39,093 nt of DNA from Peptococcaceae bacterium (lineage in GTDB: Bacteria > Bacillota > Peptococcia > DRI-13): positions 1 through 39,093 of the forward strand of contig JAIHAN010000007.1 in assembly GCA_020054815.1 (NCBI GenBank), written 5' to 3'. Position 1 is the stretch's first letter. Every line of letters starts with the position of its first letter. Position numbers and translations under genes: made by a program. Below, piece by piece: positions 18,133 to 38,091 of the stretch. The notes beneath the pieces were generated by a model, which ran no database searches, was not told the origin of the DNA, and saw only the letters and a list, made by a program, of their open reading frames with translations.

Positions 18133-18141
18133 AATTTAGTT

Positions 18142-18211
18142 AGTTGCTAGTTGGGAGTTGGCAGTAATTTTTAATGTGAACCGTTAACAGTTAACCGTGA
18201 ACTGTAAATAT
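18142..18211. repeat. Degenerate 7-nt repeat array A
   Basis: AGTTGCT AGTTGGG AGTTGGC AGTAATT TTTAATG TGAACCG TTAACAG TTAACCG TGAACTG TAAATAT in one phase. Confidence 0.8.
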
Positions 18212-18236
18212 GATCCGGTAGGGAAATTTTTTTAAA

Positions 18237-18306
18237 ACTGTTCACTGTTTATGGTTTACGAATGTAGGTAACTTAATACCGGACACTGGATGCCGGTTAC
18301 TGAAAT
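18237..18306. repeat. Degenerate 7-nt repeat array A', extending into the 3' end of comB
   Basis: ACTGTTC ACTGTTT ATGGTTT ACGAATG TAGGTAA CTTAATA CCGGACA CTGGATG CCGGTTA CTGAAAT. Confidence 0.7.
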
Positions 18307-19002
18307 AATACCTTCCCTGTAAACCGGTACAAGGGAGAACTCATCTTTTAAGCAGCAGTATTCAATGTCAGCCCAGCGTCCTTTGGCTTGCAGGACCTGA
18401 CCGTTCCGGGATTTACTTAAATGAAAAGGCAGGTTTTCTGCATAGGTTTGGTAGAGGGCCAGTGCTCCCAAAGCAGCGTCGCTTAATTTAGGCGTAAGCC
18501 ATTGACTTAGGAGCTTGATAAGATATCCTGCACAGCAGGTATCTTCCAAGGAATAAGTAGCTTTCGTACCGGCACAGGCCAAATATATGTCAAGATTCTG
18601 ATCAAGTATTTTTCTTACCAAAGCTGAAGCGTTAAGGAAAGAGCCAATATAGATATCCTTTGCACCCGAGGAGTTACAAATGGCCTTTGTGCCATTGGTG
18701 GTACAAAGGATGATTTTTCGCCCGCTTACTAGATCCGGTATATATTCCAGCGGGGAATTACCCAGGTCAAAGCCCGTAATTTTATCACTGTTTTCTTCAC
18801 CACCCAAAAGAGCTTCGGGATAAATGTTCTTTAAACGGTAGGCTTCCTCCACGGAAGATACAGGATAAACGGCGCCTGCTCCATGGGCCAGGGCTGTGGT
18901 GATTGTACTGGTAGCCCGGAAAATATCAAGAATGACTACCAGTTTGTTTTCTATGAGCTGGGTAGTAATAGACTGGGCTGTAAAACCGATATGGATTTCC
19001 AC
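18256..19002 (-). CDS. comB: 2-phosphosulfolactate phosphatase
   Basis: VVILDIFRATSTITTALAHGA, LGGEENSDKITGFDLGNSPLEY, LCTTNGTKAI are typical of ComB. Confidence 0.92.
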   Translation of the reverse strand: MEIHIGFTAQSITTQLIENKLVVILDIFRATSTITTALAHGAGAVYPVSSVEEAYRLKNIYPEALLGGEENSDKITGFDLGNSPLEYIPDLVSGRKIILCTTNGTKAICNSSGAKDIYIGSFLNASALVRKILDQNLDIYLACAGTKATYSLEDTCCAGYLIKLLSQWLTPKLSDAALGALALYQTYAENLPFHLSKSRNGQVLQAKGRWADIEYCCLKDEFSLVPVYREGIISVTGIQCPVLSYLHS

Positions 19003-19975: not shown

Positions 19976-20020
19976 AATGTTAAATAGTTGAGGTGCCTGG
20001 CACCTCAACTATTTAACATT
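19976..20020. repeat. 45-nt dispersed palindrome, copy 2
   Basis: AATGTTAAATAGTTGAGGTGCC-T-GGCACCTCAACTATTTAACATT: perfect 22-nt arms. Confidence 0.93.
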
Positions 20021-20168
20021 ATCTTAACAATACTGAATAGAACCAGTCATGTTATAAAAGGGGGGATGGGACTGGGAAACATGACTTCTAGACACTTGTA
20101 CACATGTAAGGTATTATGGATTAAGTAAGCACTTACCGATACTTTAGATAGTTCTGGGGTGAAAAACC

Positions 20169-21623: not shown

Positions 21624-22464
21624 AGCTAAGACCTTTGCTGAACTGGTGAAATTTGAACACACCATCTTTGCCTTGCCTTTTGCTTATATGGGGGCTTTAT
21701 TAGCGAAAAAAGCCCTGCCTACCTGGCTGCAGTTTATTTGGATTACGCTAGCCATGGTCGGAGCCCGCAGTGCGGCCATGGGTCTGAACAGGGTTATCGA
21801 CCGCTATATTGATAAAGAGAATCCCCGTACTGCTAACCGTCACTTACCCCGGGGCTTAATTTCCGTGTGGGAAGTCATGGTTTTTGTGGTGCTGTCCTTT
21901 CTTTTACTCATCTATGCCACCTACCGGCTCAGTCCCCGGCATCTCATCTATTTACCGGTAATTATCTTAATTTTAACCGGGTATTCTTACACCAAACGAT
22001 TTACCTGGCTGTGCCATCTTGTTTTAGGGATTGCCATCGGGTTTGCCCCCATGGGGGGGTGGATCGGTGTCACCCAAAGTATGCAGCTGGAAACTTTTAT
22101 CTTAGGTTTGGTGGTAGCCTTTTGGATTGCCGGGTTTGATATCATTTACGCTACCCAGGATCTTGAATTTGACCGTCAATACGGCCTTTATTCCATGCCT
22201 GTCACCTTTGGTTTAAAGAAAGCCCTCTTTGTGGCCAAGCTGTTCCATGTGGTGGTAGTATTATTACTGGTTAGCCTGTATTCCCTGCTGGATTTGGGCT
22301 GGTGGTACCTGGCAGGGGTCTTCGTCACCAACCTCCTGCTTCATTACGAGCACTCCATCATCTCACCCCAGGACCTAAGCCGGGTCAATGTGGCATTCTT
22401 CAATATAAATGGGCTAATTAGTATACAACTGTTAGTGTTTACCCTGCTGGATGTATTGCTCTAG
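21604..22464 (+). CDS. UbiA-family prenyltransferase
   Basis: Polytopic; GLNRVIDRYIDKENPRTANRHLPRG and DIIYATQDLEFDRQYGLYSMP prenyl-diphosphate motifs; 20-nt overlap with ubiD gene. Confidence 0.93.
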   Translation: MALVRNKAKTFAELVKFEHTIFALPFAYMGALLAKKALPTWLQFIWITLAMVGARSAAMGLNRVIDRYIDKENPRTANRHLPRGLISVWEVMVFVVLSFLLLIYATYRLSPRHLIYLPVIILILTGYSYTKRFTWLCHLVLGIAIGFAPMGGWIGVTQSMQLETFILGLVVAFWIAGFDIIYATQDLEFDRQYGLYSMPVTFGLKKALFVAKLFHVVVVLLLVSLYSLLDLGWWYLAGVFVTNLLLHYEHSIISPQDLSRVNVAFFNINGLISIQLLVFTLLDVLL

Positions 22465-22577
22465 TTCGCGGTTGGTAGTTCCCTTAGTGACCGGTGACCC
22501 GTGATCTGTGACCAGTGAATTAACCGGACACTGGACTCTGGTCACTAATGTCGGAAATCGGATGTCGGCTATCGGAA
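22464..22577. repeat. Degenerate 7-nt repeat array B between ubiA and ubiE
   Basis: GTTCGCG GTTGGTA GTTCCCT (ta) GTGACCG GTGACCC GTGATCT GTGACCA GTGAATT AACCGGA CACTGGA CTCTGGT CACTAAT GTCGGAA ATCGGAT GTCGGCT ATCGGAA. Confidence 0.85.
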
Positions 22578-22602
22578 AGTCGTTATGCTAGGATGTGACA
22601 TC

Positions 22603-23346
22603 ATGAACAAAGACCTGGGGGAGCAGTTTGAAGGAAAAGAGGAGTATGTGAAGAATCTTTTCAACTCGATTGCTCCTTTCTATGACCGGATGAATATGAT
22701 TATGACCTGGGGGCTCTTGAAAAGCTGGCAAAAATTTGTGATGAACCAGACCAACCTTAAGCTTGGGGATAAAGCCCTGGATGTGTGTACAGGCACAGGG
22801 GAGCTGGCCTTTCAGATGGCGGAAAAGGTTGGTCCTACGGGGGAAGTCATAGGTTTGGATTTGTCTGGAGAGATGCTCAGTATTGCGCGGGAAAAATTAG
22901 TAAAGCAGTACCCTCAGTGTAAAGTAGTTTTTATGGAAGGTAATGCCCTTTCACTGCCTTTTCCTGCTGAGGAATTTGCTTGTGTTACCACGGGATTCGC
23001 CATGCGGAATGTGGTGGATATTCCCCTGGCTGTGCAAGAGATGACGCGGGTATGTAAAAAAGGGGGAAGGGTCATCTGCCTGGAAATTTCCCAGCCTACC
23101 ATTCCTCTTTTTCGGCAAGGATTTCGTTTATACTTTTTTCACTTCATCCCCCTGCTGGGGCGTCTTGTGGATAAAGGGCAAAAGATTTTCGGCCGCTTAC
23201 CTGCCTATACCTGGCTGCCGGAGTCTTTGAAAAGATTTCCTGATCGGCAAACCCTGGCCCAGATCTTTCGAGAGGCGGGTTTGCGGGAAGTCAAGTATTA
23301 TCCTTTGAGCGGGGGAGTAGTTACTGTGCATGTCGGCGTCAAGTAA
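22603..23346 (+). CDS. ubiE/menG: Demethylmenaquinone/ubiquinone methyltransferase
   Basis: FNSIAPFYDRMNMIMTWGLLKSWQKF, ALDVCTGTGELAFQMAE, GFAMRNVVD. Start could be ATG 22585 or 22603. Confidence 0.94.
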   Translation: MNKDLGEQFEGKEEYVKNLFNSIAPFYDRMNMIMTWGLLKSWQKFVMNQTNLKLGDKALDVCTGTGELAFQMAEKVGPTGEVIGLDLSGEMLSIAREKLVKQYPQCKVVFMEGNALSLPFPAEEFACVTTGFAMRNVVDIPLAVQEMTRVCKKGGRVICLEISQPTIPLFRQGFRLYFFHFIPLLGRLVDKGQKIFGRLPAYTWLPESLKRFPDRQTLAQIFREAGLREVKYYPLSGGVVTVHVGVK

Positions 23347-23381
23347 GTTACTAGTTATCAGTTACTAGTTATTAGTGAATA
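23347..23381. repeat. Degenerate 7-nt repeat array C
   Basis: GTTACTA GTTATCA GTTACTA GTTATTA GTGAATA, starting at the base after the ubiE stop. Confidence 0.85.
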
Positions 23382-23412
23382 AAGCACTATAATTTAAGTG
23401 TTAAGTATAAGT

Positions 23413-23450
23413 AGAAAGAGCCACTAACCAATTGGGTTATGGCTCTTTCT
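23413..23450 (+). terminator. Intrinsic terminator after ubiE
   Basis: AGAAAGAGCC...AACC-AATT-GGTT...GGCTCTTTCT. Confidence 0.75.
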
Positions 23451-23510
23451 TTGATTGTTCAGGAAAGTATAACTTTATAATCAGTAAGTAGAAAAGGGAT
23501 GTGGAAATTG

Positions 23511-23536
23511 ATGCGGCGTAGCCGCATTTTTATTTT
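23511..23536 (+). terminator. Second terminator-like hairpin
   Basis: ATGCGGC-GTA-GCCGCAT followed by TTTTATTTT. Confidence 0.7.
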
Positions 23537-23571
23537 ACTAGTAACTAAGAACTAGTAACTAGTAACTAATT
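23537..23571. repeat. Degenerate 7-nt repeat array D (inverted relative to C)
   Basis: ACTAGTA ACTAAGA ACTAGTA ACTAGTA ACTAATT. Confidence 0.85.
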
Positions 23572-23984
23572 TACCCAATAAGGTACAGCAATCTCATGGC
23601 ATTGAGGGCATGCTCGTGCATGGTGTCAAAGAAGATATCCCGGTAGCAGGTATCGGCAATAAGATACAATTCTTTTAGCCAGTCGAAGAGTTGAGCCTCT
23701 TCTTTAAATGCATAACGAGCGGCATCCACGAAATTGGCAAAGGTGCGGGGTTCTTCCAGGGCTTCTTCATGAAGCGGTGGAATAGCTTTTCCGCCCATTT
23801 CCATGTAGAGTTTTTCCATCTTTCTCATGGTATGATGGACGGTCATGCGGTTCATTTCCACCATCCTGCGGGCCTCTTCCGTGGGGGCATTTTGCACCAT
23901 GTAACCGTAGACCAGATCGAGTTCCATGAGTTCTCCCACAACTGTGGTTAAGAAAGCGGGTAAGGTGAAAGTTTGATATACCAT
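23571..23984 (-). CDS. Ferritin-like paralog lacking ExxH ligand motifs
   Basis: Shares NAPTEEARRMVEMN and overall length with the 24000-24407 protein; ligand positions replaced. Confidence 0.7.
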   Translation of the reverse strand: MVYQTFTLPAFLTTVVGELMELDLVYGYMVQNAPTEEARRMVEMNRMTVHHTMRKMEKLYMEMGGKAIPPLHEEALEEPRTFANFVDAARYAFKEEAQLFDWLKELYLIADTCYRDIFFDTMHEHALNAMRLLYLIG

Positions 23985-29008: not shown

Positions 29009-29043
29009 ACTACCAACTGCCAACTAACAACTACCAACTATTA
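29009..29043. repeat. Degenerate 7-nt repeat array E
   Basis: ACTACCA ACTGCCA ACTAACA ACTACCA ACTATTA; overlaps the 4-OT stop codon. Confidence 0.85.
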
Positions 29044-37904: not shown

Positions 37905-37931
37905 ATTTTTCACAAAGAGAATAAAAGATAA

Positions 37932-38091
37932 CTCCGAACTCACAATACCTAAGGGAAACTATGGTATTTGAGTCAATGGGTACCAGGAGAAATTCTGCTG
38001 CCTCCCGTGTTTGGAAAGGAGATTTGCTTCATAGTGATTTCACTGCCGGCATCTTTCCGAGGGAGGGAAAATGCTGGCAATTATTTTTATT
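37932..38091 (+). ncRNA. Moco (molybdenum/tungsten cofactor) riboswitch candidate upstream of moeA
   Basis: GCCTCCCGTGTTTGGAAAGGAGATTTGCTTC resembles the remembered moaA-leader Moco motif; CCTCCC/GGGAGG pairing; terminator-like TGCCGGCAT...ATGCTGGCA + T-rich. Confidence 0.8.

Follow-up and report, generated by a model that had tools for sequence, protein, structure and literature searches.

Period-7 repeat arrays in a Peptococcaceae genome as probable arms of hairpin elements resembling rRNA intervening sequences

Repeat arrays in the window

The window, a stretch of 39,093 nucleotides from a Peptococcaceae bacterium, is one contig (G000:C60) of a 2.7-Mb MAG with 177 contigs and a completeness of 80.75% (G000), which we compared with a sister genome of the same genus in one contig (G001). 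Local matching at a lag of 7 nt gave segments at 18141–18165, 18176–18208, 22487–22518, 22523–22575, 23346–23381, 23537–23568 and 29009–29040 of the window, and at the same threshold the lags 8, 10 and 13 gave no match there. Tandem Repeats Finder independently called a period of 7 at 22486, 22551, 23346, 23537 and 29009. Period-7 tracts were thus found at every site that the initial annotation of this DNA had named, and what changed is their extent and their relation to each other. The stretch 18142–18211, described there as a single tract, is periodic and contains two arrays that differ in class and in register, AGTTGNN at 18142–18162 and GTNAACN at 18176–18203. The periodic tract at 18237 forms the inverted partner of the second of these, the one placed at 22464 shows a clear period only from 22487 on, and the tracts at 23346 and 23537, which had been listed separately, together make up the arms of a single 220-bp hairpin. 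All features are collected in Table 1; throughout this work gene ends are simple ORF calls.

Table 1: Heptamer arrays and associated features of the window.
Feature	Position	Strand	Basis
Class A left arm, AGTTGCT AGTTGGG AGTTGGC	18142–18162	+	lag-7 match, class block
Class E left arm, GTGAACC GTTAACA GTTAACC GTGAACT	18176–18203	+	lag-7 match, class block
Core between class E arms; its start GTAAATATGA common to other module copies	18204–18238	.	E-module alignment
Class E right arm, inverted partner of 18176–18203	18239–18259	-	class block
Class B left arm, GTGACCG GTGACCC GTGATCT GTGACCA	22487–22514	+	lag-7 match, class block
Class B right arm CGGACACTGGACTCTGGTCAC, 10 nt past left arm	22525–22545	-	class block, B-module alignment
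Class D right-type block, TCGGAAA TCGGATG TCGGCTA TCGGAAA	22551–22578	+	class block
Class A left arm, starts at stop codon of ubiE-like ORF 22585–23346	23346–23373	+	class block
Class A right arm, inverted partner of 23346–23373	23540–23567	-	class block, predicted fold
Class A right-type array ACCAACTGCCAACTAACAACTACCAACT	29012–29039	-	lag-7 match, class block

No partner arm was detected for the class A array at 29012–29039. The stretch 18139–18273 matches several dispersed places in G001, and 22463–22577 is dispersed there as well. In the predicted fold of 23344–23572 as DNA (z = -6.97 against shuffles) the two class A arms pair with each other, and this outer stem makes a hairpin that spans the whole intergenic region. 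The other two of the three window clusters fold no better than shuffled DNA (18138–18325, z = -1.4; 22466–22582, z = +0.6), and fold energy by itself is not diagnostic of the arrays. No Rfam match was found at the arrays.

Two further features of the window were observed. The 3' end (18256–18302) of a minus-strand ORF at 18256–19002, which by eye resembles a 2-phosphosulfolactate phosphatase, overlaps both the class E right arm and a B-like stretch, and the element thus seems to encode the last residues of this ORF. A molybdenum/tungsten cofactor riboswitch (Rfam RF01055, 72.1 bits) lies at 37920–38037.

Periodicity and unit classes across the genome

For a genome-wide view local lag-k identity was scored over 60 stretches of the MAG, 942 kb in all (score at least 12), the census covering about 35% of G000 and 31% of G001. 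At lag 7 we obtained 88 segments, 81 of them intergenic and seven inside ORFs, compared with 0–5 segments for each tested lag that is not a multiple of 7 and none in order-3 Markov versions of the 942 kb. This is the comparison that the initial annotation had proposed, with a missing lag-7 excess as the outcome that would speak against it; since the excess is seen genome-wide, the period-7 intergenic arrays are confirmed as real and non-random.

Each tract had also been thought to carry a different core, with units specific to its locus. This does not hold, as the units fall genome-wide into about six recurrent classes which are common to many loci in G000 and in the sister genome. Read from the left side these are A (AGTTRNN), G (AGTTSGC), B (GTGACCN), E (GTNAACN), D (NNTCCGA) and F (a CCCG-containing unit), and a unit has four or five nearly invariant positions besides about two free ones.

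A slippage- or template-driven process had been suggested as the source of the arrays, and plain heptanucleotide microsatellites, in which slippage favours 7-nt units that subsequently drift by mutation, are the view of Mrazek et al. (2007) as far as it is relayed in PMC4679880. Such a process does act, if only now and then and by slippage or microhomology: some intergenic regions of G000 and G001 are identical except for a single difference of 7 nt, an 11-unit array of G001 is homogenised, and class A units are slightly more alike within an array than between arrays (identity 0.85 vs 0.79). In the classes B, E, D, F and G, however, the identity of neighbouring units (0.74–0.84) is not clearly higher than that between different arrays (0.74–0.89). 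Because a unit resembles its neighbours no more than it resembles units of other arrays, neighbour copying is not the main source of the unit variety here, and with five of six classes lacking this likeness slippage alone fails to predict the pattern. The sharing of unit classes by different loci also stands against microsatellites, as do the inverted pairing with fixed handedness, the conserved cores and the concentration of arrays beside IVP genes (all below), and we regard this explanation as very unlikely. Slippage alone as a sufficient cause is rejected on the neighbour identities together with the handedness of the inverted pairs.

Inverted pairing, handedness and cores

In every class the left block has the reading given above and the right block its reverse complement. 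For neighbouring blocks no more than 90 bp apart, the order left-then-right outnumbers right-then-left by 31:0 in G000 and 81:7 in G001, block counts which are descriptive because the class patterns were derived from the data themselves; the lag tests and the tests of IVP flanks are independent of these patterns. Class A blocks of other phyla gave 10:1 within 160 bp, and in the home genus the same-class inverted pairs all have one handedness. Many pairs enclose a conserved core, which measures 10 nt in most class B modules (9/15), 33–35 nt in class E and 39 nt in most class D modules, where it occurs in both orientations. The arrays are probably paired arms of hairpin modules.

Growth of arrays at broken DNA ends, be it telomerase-like or by end joining, would also give a fixed handedness but is disfavoured: Ku is present in array genomes and likewise in array-less relatives, reverse transcriptase genes fail to distinguish the two, and the conserved cores favour the copying of elements. 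Integron attC sites, too, presumably fit poorly, given the handedness and the form of the arrays.

The reading direction of the arrays tends to be away from the closest coding sequence, regardless of the direction of that gene. In other phyla A+ arrays lie nearer to the left gene (41:14) and A- arrays nearer to the right gene (39:7), counts that use simple ORF calls and in which stop codons within the units may bias the gene ends. Many arrays end near a ribosome-binding site, as would be expected from cis-regulatory binding sites, for example of a translational regulator acting near start codons as proposed in PMC4679880. Regulation of this kind is nevertheless highly improbable as an explanation of the arrays, as their orientation goes with the intergenic side on which they lie and not with gene direction, and as whole arrays have been replaced between the sister genomes at unchanged genes.

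Turnover between sister genomes

This replacement was followed at 38 orthologous loci of G000 and G001, whose syntenic stretches are about 86–99%, mostly 91–97%, identical. The window arrays at 23346, 23537 and 29009 are identical in both genomes; other orthologous arrays differ by 7 or 28 nt or occur in just one of the two genomes, and at some places (L008 11668, window 22487 and L058 8801) a whole cluster has been swapped for one of another class while the gene ends on either side are unchanged. Loci with an array in just one genome, among which clean empty sites are few, showed no target-site duplication and no other sign of transposition. At L064 (9820, 12020, 14615) and its counterpart L295 the arrays and their flanks are 100% identical between the genomes while other regions differ by several percent, which is due either to recent exchange or to an assembly mix-up. 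A tRNA-like gene with the anticodon TTT (by eye) was observed at L032 3114–3368 beside class A arrays of G000.

IVP genes between the arms

At one orthologous locus the sister genome carries a gene between the arms. The ORF between class D arms at L267 4052 of G001 encodes a 23S rRNA-intervening-sequence protein (IVP/S23; PF05635, E = 6e-42) with 2gsc as the closest solved structure (E = 9e-24), and its ortholog at L058 5431 of G000 keeps an arm and the first codons of the element that is intact in G001, the rest being lost. This G000 array is the remnant of an IVP element. Two further IVP copies of G001 were found, one enclosed by class A arms (L313) and the other next to AT-rich heptamers (L327). 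The arm classes of G001 IVP genes, D (L301) and A (L313), match those of gene-less arrays, and no IVP ORF was found in the window or in G000 as a whole. At L267 4021–4440 we also observed that the C-terminal tail of the IVP, GSRKSESGRRDI, is encoded by the heptamer arm of its own element.

As a test outside this genus we collected IVP genes from other genomes regardless of the repeats at their loci, giving 75 loci with some near-duplicates among them (L306 is identical to L338, and L357 is close to L385). At lag 7, 80 segments lie no more than 250 bp from the gene, compared with 20 in the longer stretch beyond 600 bp, at lag 8 the numbers are 32 and 15, and each of the lags 5, 6, 9, 10 and 11 gave 0–5 segments near the gene. 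Classified by locus, 39 have period 7, 17 period 8, one period 11 and 18 none. Left arms and the reverse complements of their right arms have 56% of their 6-mers in common, compared with 4.6% for shuffled partners (24 loci), and a separate cyanobacterial sample gave 48% vs 7% (14 loci). None of 10 control loci with genes for Y1 transposase, Ku or reverse transcriptase has such an array near the gene, and no match to Rfam or to rRNA was found at 20 IVP loci. The period of the arms clusters on the tree of the IVP proteins (eight changes against a shuffled mean of 14.8, with 0 of 500 shuffles as low), and periods 7 and 8 are found together in a single genome (G039), so that the period does not depend on the host alone.

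These data also bear on two other origins of the arrays. IVP elements could be separate entities which insert into the loops of pre-existing heptamer hairpins, so that the arms would not belong to them, just as 23S rRNA IVSs replace the loops of existing helices (PMC4990558); the excess of gene-less arrays over IVP genes in our genomes would agree with this. Yet most armed IVP loci have their own unit sequences, for example AGCTGTA, AGATGTG, GGAACAC, AAGAAGG or CTACTCC, and the arm period follows the IVP tree with both periods in G039, which makes loop insertion rather unlikely. The arrays could also be REP-like palindromes spread by Y1 (RAYT) transposases, whose genes occur in both genomes (one in G000, five in G001). 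At six Y1 loci no heptamer array lies closer than 250 bp to the gene, and the palindrome at the Y1 site of the window (19976–20029) is a different, non-heptameric repeat, so that this origin has next to no probability and was rejected on the array-free Y1 loci. That site holds a perfect 45-bp palindrome, AATGTTAAATAGTTGAGGTGCCTGGCACCTCAACTATTTAACATT, which is dispersed in G001, and as G001 has about 0.9 kb with a Y1 transposase gene at this place the window looks like an empty site.

The period, the inverted pairing, the fixed handedness, the dispersed modules with conserved cores, the arms around IVP genes in many phyla and the one remnant are what we observed, and they suggest that the arrays are probably the arms of IVS-like hairpin elements which stand free between genes and are mostly gene-less derivatives. 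A full element would consist of a left arm of tandem degenerate 7-mers, or 8-mers in some lineages, followed by the gene for IVP/S23 (PF05635), a four-helix-bundle protein that would thus be encoded between the arms, and a right arm as the inverted counterpart of the left one. Most copies of G000 and all of the window lack the gene and would represent shortened, nested or recombined derivatives with short cores. The elements may move or be copied between sites, the IVP may recognise their arms as RNA or DNA, and the step of 7 or 8 nt could reflect the geometry of this recognition, with units gained and lost by ordinary slippage or microhomology. Several results argue against the hairpin-element explanation. 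No IVP gene was found in the 80.75% complete G000 or in the window, the three IVP genes of G001 are far fewer than its gene-less arrays, around IVP genes of this genus only the classes A and D were seen and not B, E or F, and 18 of the 75 IVP loci have no arms. Remnants of the IVP interior were found in one gene-less element only, that of L058.

At the level of whole genomes, a scan of species genomes for AGTTRNY arrays gave, among the matches listed, Cyanobacteria, Bacteroidetes, Acidobacteria, Planctomycetes, Proteobacteria, Verrucomicrobia, Omnitrophota and others. PF05635 is present in 46 of 50 genomes that were chosen, among the matches listed, only by their AGTTRNY arrays and in 13 of 81 relatives of G000, two sets that differ in phylum, so that a test within one phylum weighs more. 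In a cyanobacterial sample IVP occurs in 21 of 25 array genomes and in 30 of the 74 other genomes (p = 0.0002), and within the set of 81 relatives arrays and IVP are associated with p = 0.004. Genome size is a likely confounder of this association, and together with lineage it may inflate it.

Relation to known repeats and elements

Cyanobacterial STRR heptamers are intergenic, tandem and present in many copies per genome, and they resemble the arrays described here as intergenic tandem heptamers of another host group. To our knowledge, inverted pairing and IVP do not belong to the picture of these repeats. The initial annotation knew of no described equivalent for the group of this bacterium; described relatives do exist, in other organisms (PMC4476775, PMC4679880, PMC4990558). 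TAACTGA direct repeats occur in Beggiatoaceae, Cyanobacteria and Bacteroidetes (MacGregor 2015, PMC4679880), and TAACTGA is the reverse complement of a rotated AGTTATC, a class A unit which occurs in 23346–23373, although the exact TAACTGA unit is not dominant here. Those repeats, too, are intergenic and often precede start codons, but they are reported as one sequence with few near variants and a likely regulatory role, whereas the arrays here fall into several classes, form inverted pairs and are linked to IVP. The heptamers in the P6b stem of the Nostoc trnL intron (PMC4476775) belong to two classes of degenerate 7-nt motifs from which both sides of the stem are built, with class replacement between relatives and length changes of 7 nt; unlike the arrays here they lie within a group I intron of one gene, and no IVP is reported for them.

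A further comparison is with rRNA IVSs, described as parasitic elements which have complementary borders forming a stem-loop and are cut from the RNA by RNase III (PMC4990558). In some species they carry an S23 ORF, the S23 protein of Xanthomonas being a homopentamer of four-helix bundles, and in the 23S IVS of Coxiella burnetii tandem heptamers in strain-dependent number precede this ORF (PMC4990558). Complementary stem-forming borders and tandem heptamers are common to both systems, and an IVP ORF belongs to the full element, here as seen in elements of the sister genome with the same arm classes. The arrays studied here differ in being free-standing, mostly without ORF and present in many copies and several unit classes per genome, and since the window elements lie outside rRNA, with no rRNA match in the window and all arrays intergenic, and lack an IVP, they are not 23S rRNA IVSs. 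They work like the stems of these IVSs. A MITE-like description fits them in part: terminal inverted repeats, no ORF and many dispersed copies were all found for the window elements, and ends in common with a gene-bearing partner were seen for the classes A and D and not for B, E and F. A weak profile match of IVP to the bAvd-like accessory proteins of diversity-generating retroelements (PF22296, E = 1e-4, below the curated cut-off) is a resemblance only; no reverse transcriptase linked to our elements was seen.

It is possible, though we propose it tentatively, that there is a bacterium-wide class of hairpin elements with rRNA IVSs as a special case, in which the IVP recognises arms of 7-mers or 8-mers, the step follows from the geometry of this protein and the arm sequences co-evolve with it; TAACTGA, STRR and other orphan heptamers would then be gene-less offspring moved in trans. 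Our data suggest that scattered and puzzling repeats belong to one poorly recognised element family. With the hairpin-element explanation the heptanucleotide repeats, noted for long but unexplained in scattered bacteria, become arms, and the widespread IVP/S23 becomes the product encoded between them. The link makes the role of IVP, which might bind, fold or move its own arms, and the reason for the 7-nt unit testable, and it offers a rule for finding such elements in genomes, namely a step of 7 or 8, inverted, with the left type before the right type.

Some details of the collected IVP loci may be added. Inverted arms of period 8 were observed, for example, at L361, L363, L364, L367, L373 and L383, and a clade of seven IVPs from the cyanobacterial phylum has period 8 only. 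The 1.1-Mb genome of L350 (G107) contains 11 IVP matches, several of them with in-frame TGA, which suggests that TGA is perhaps read as a residue there.
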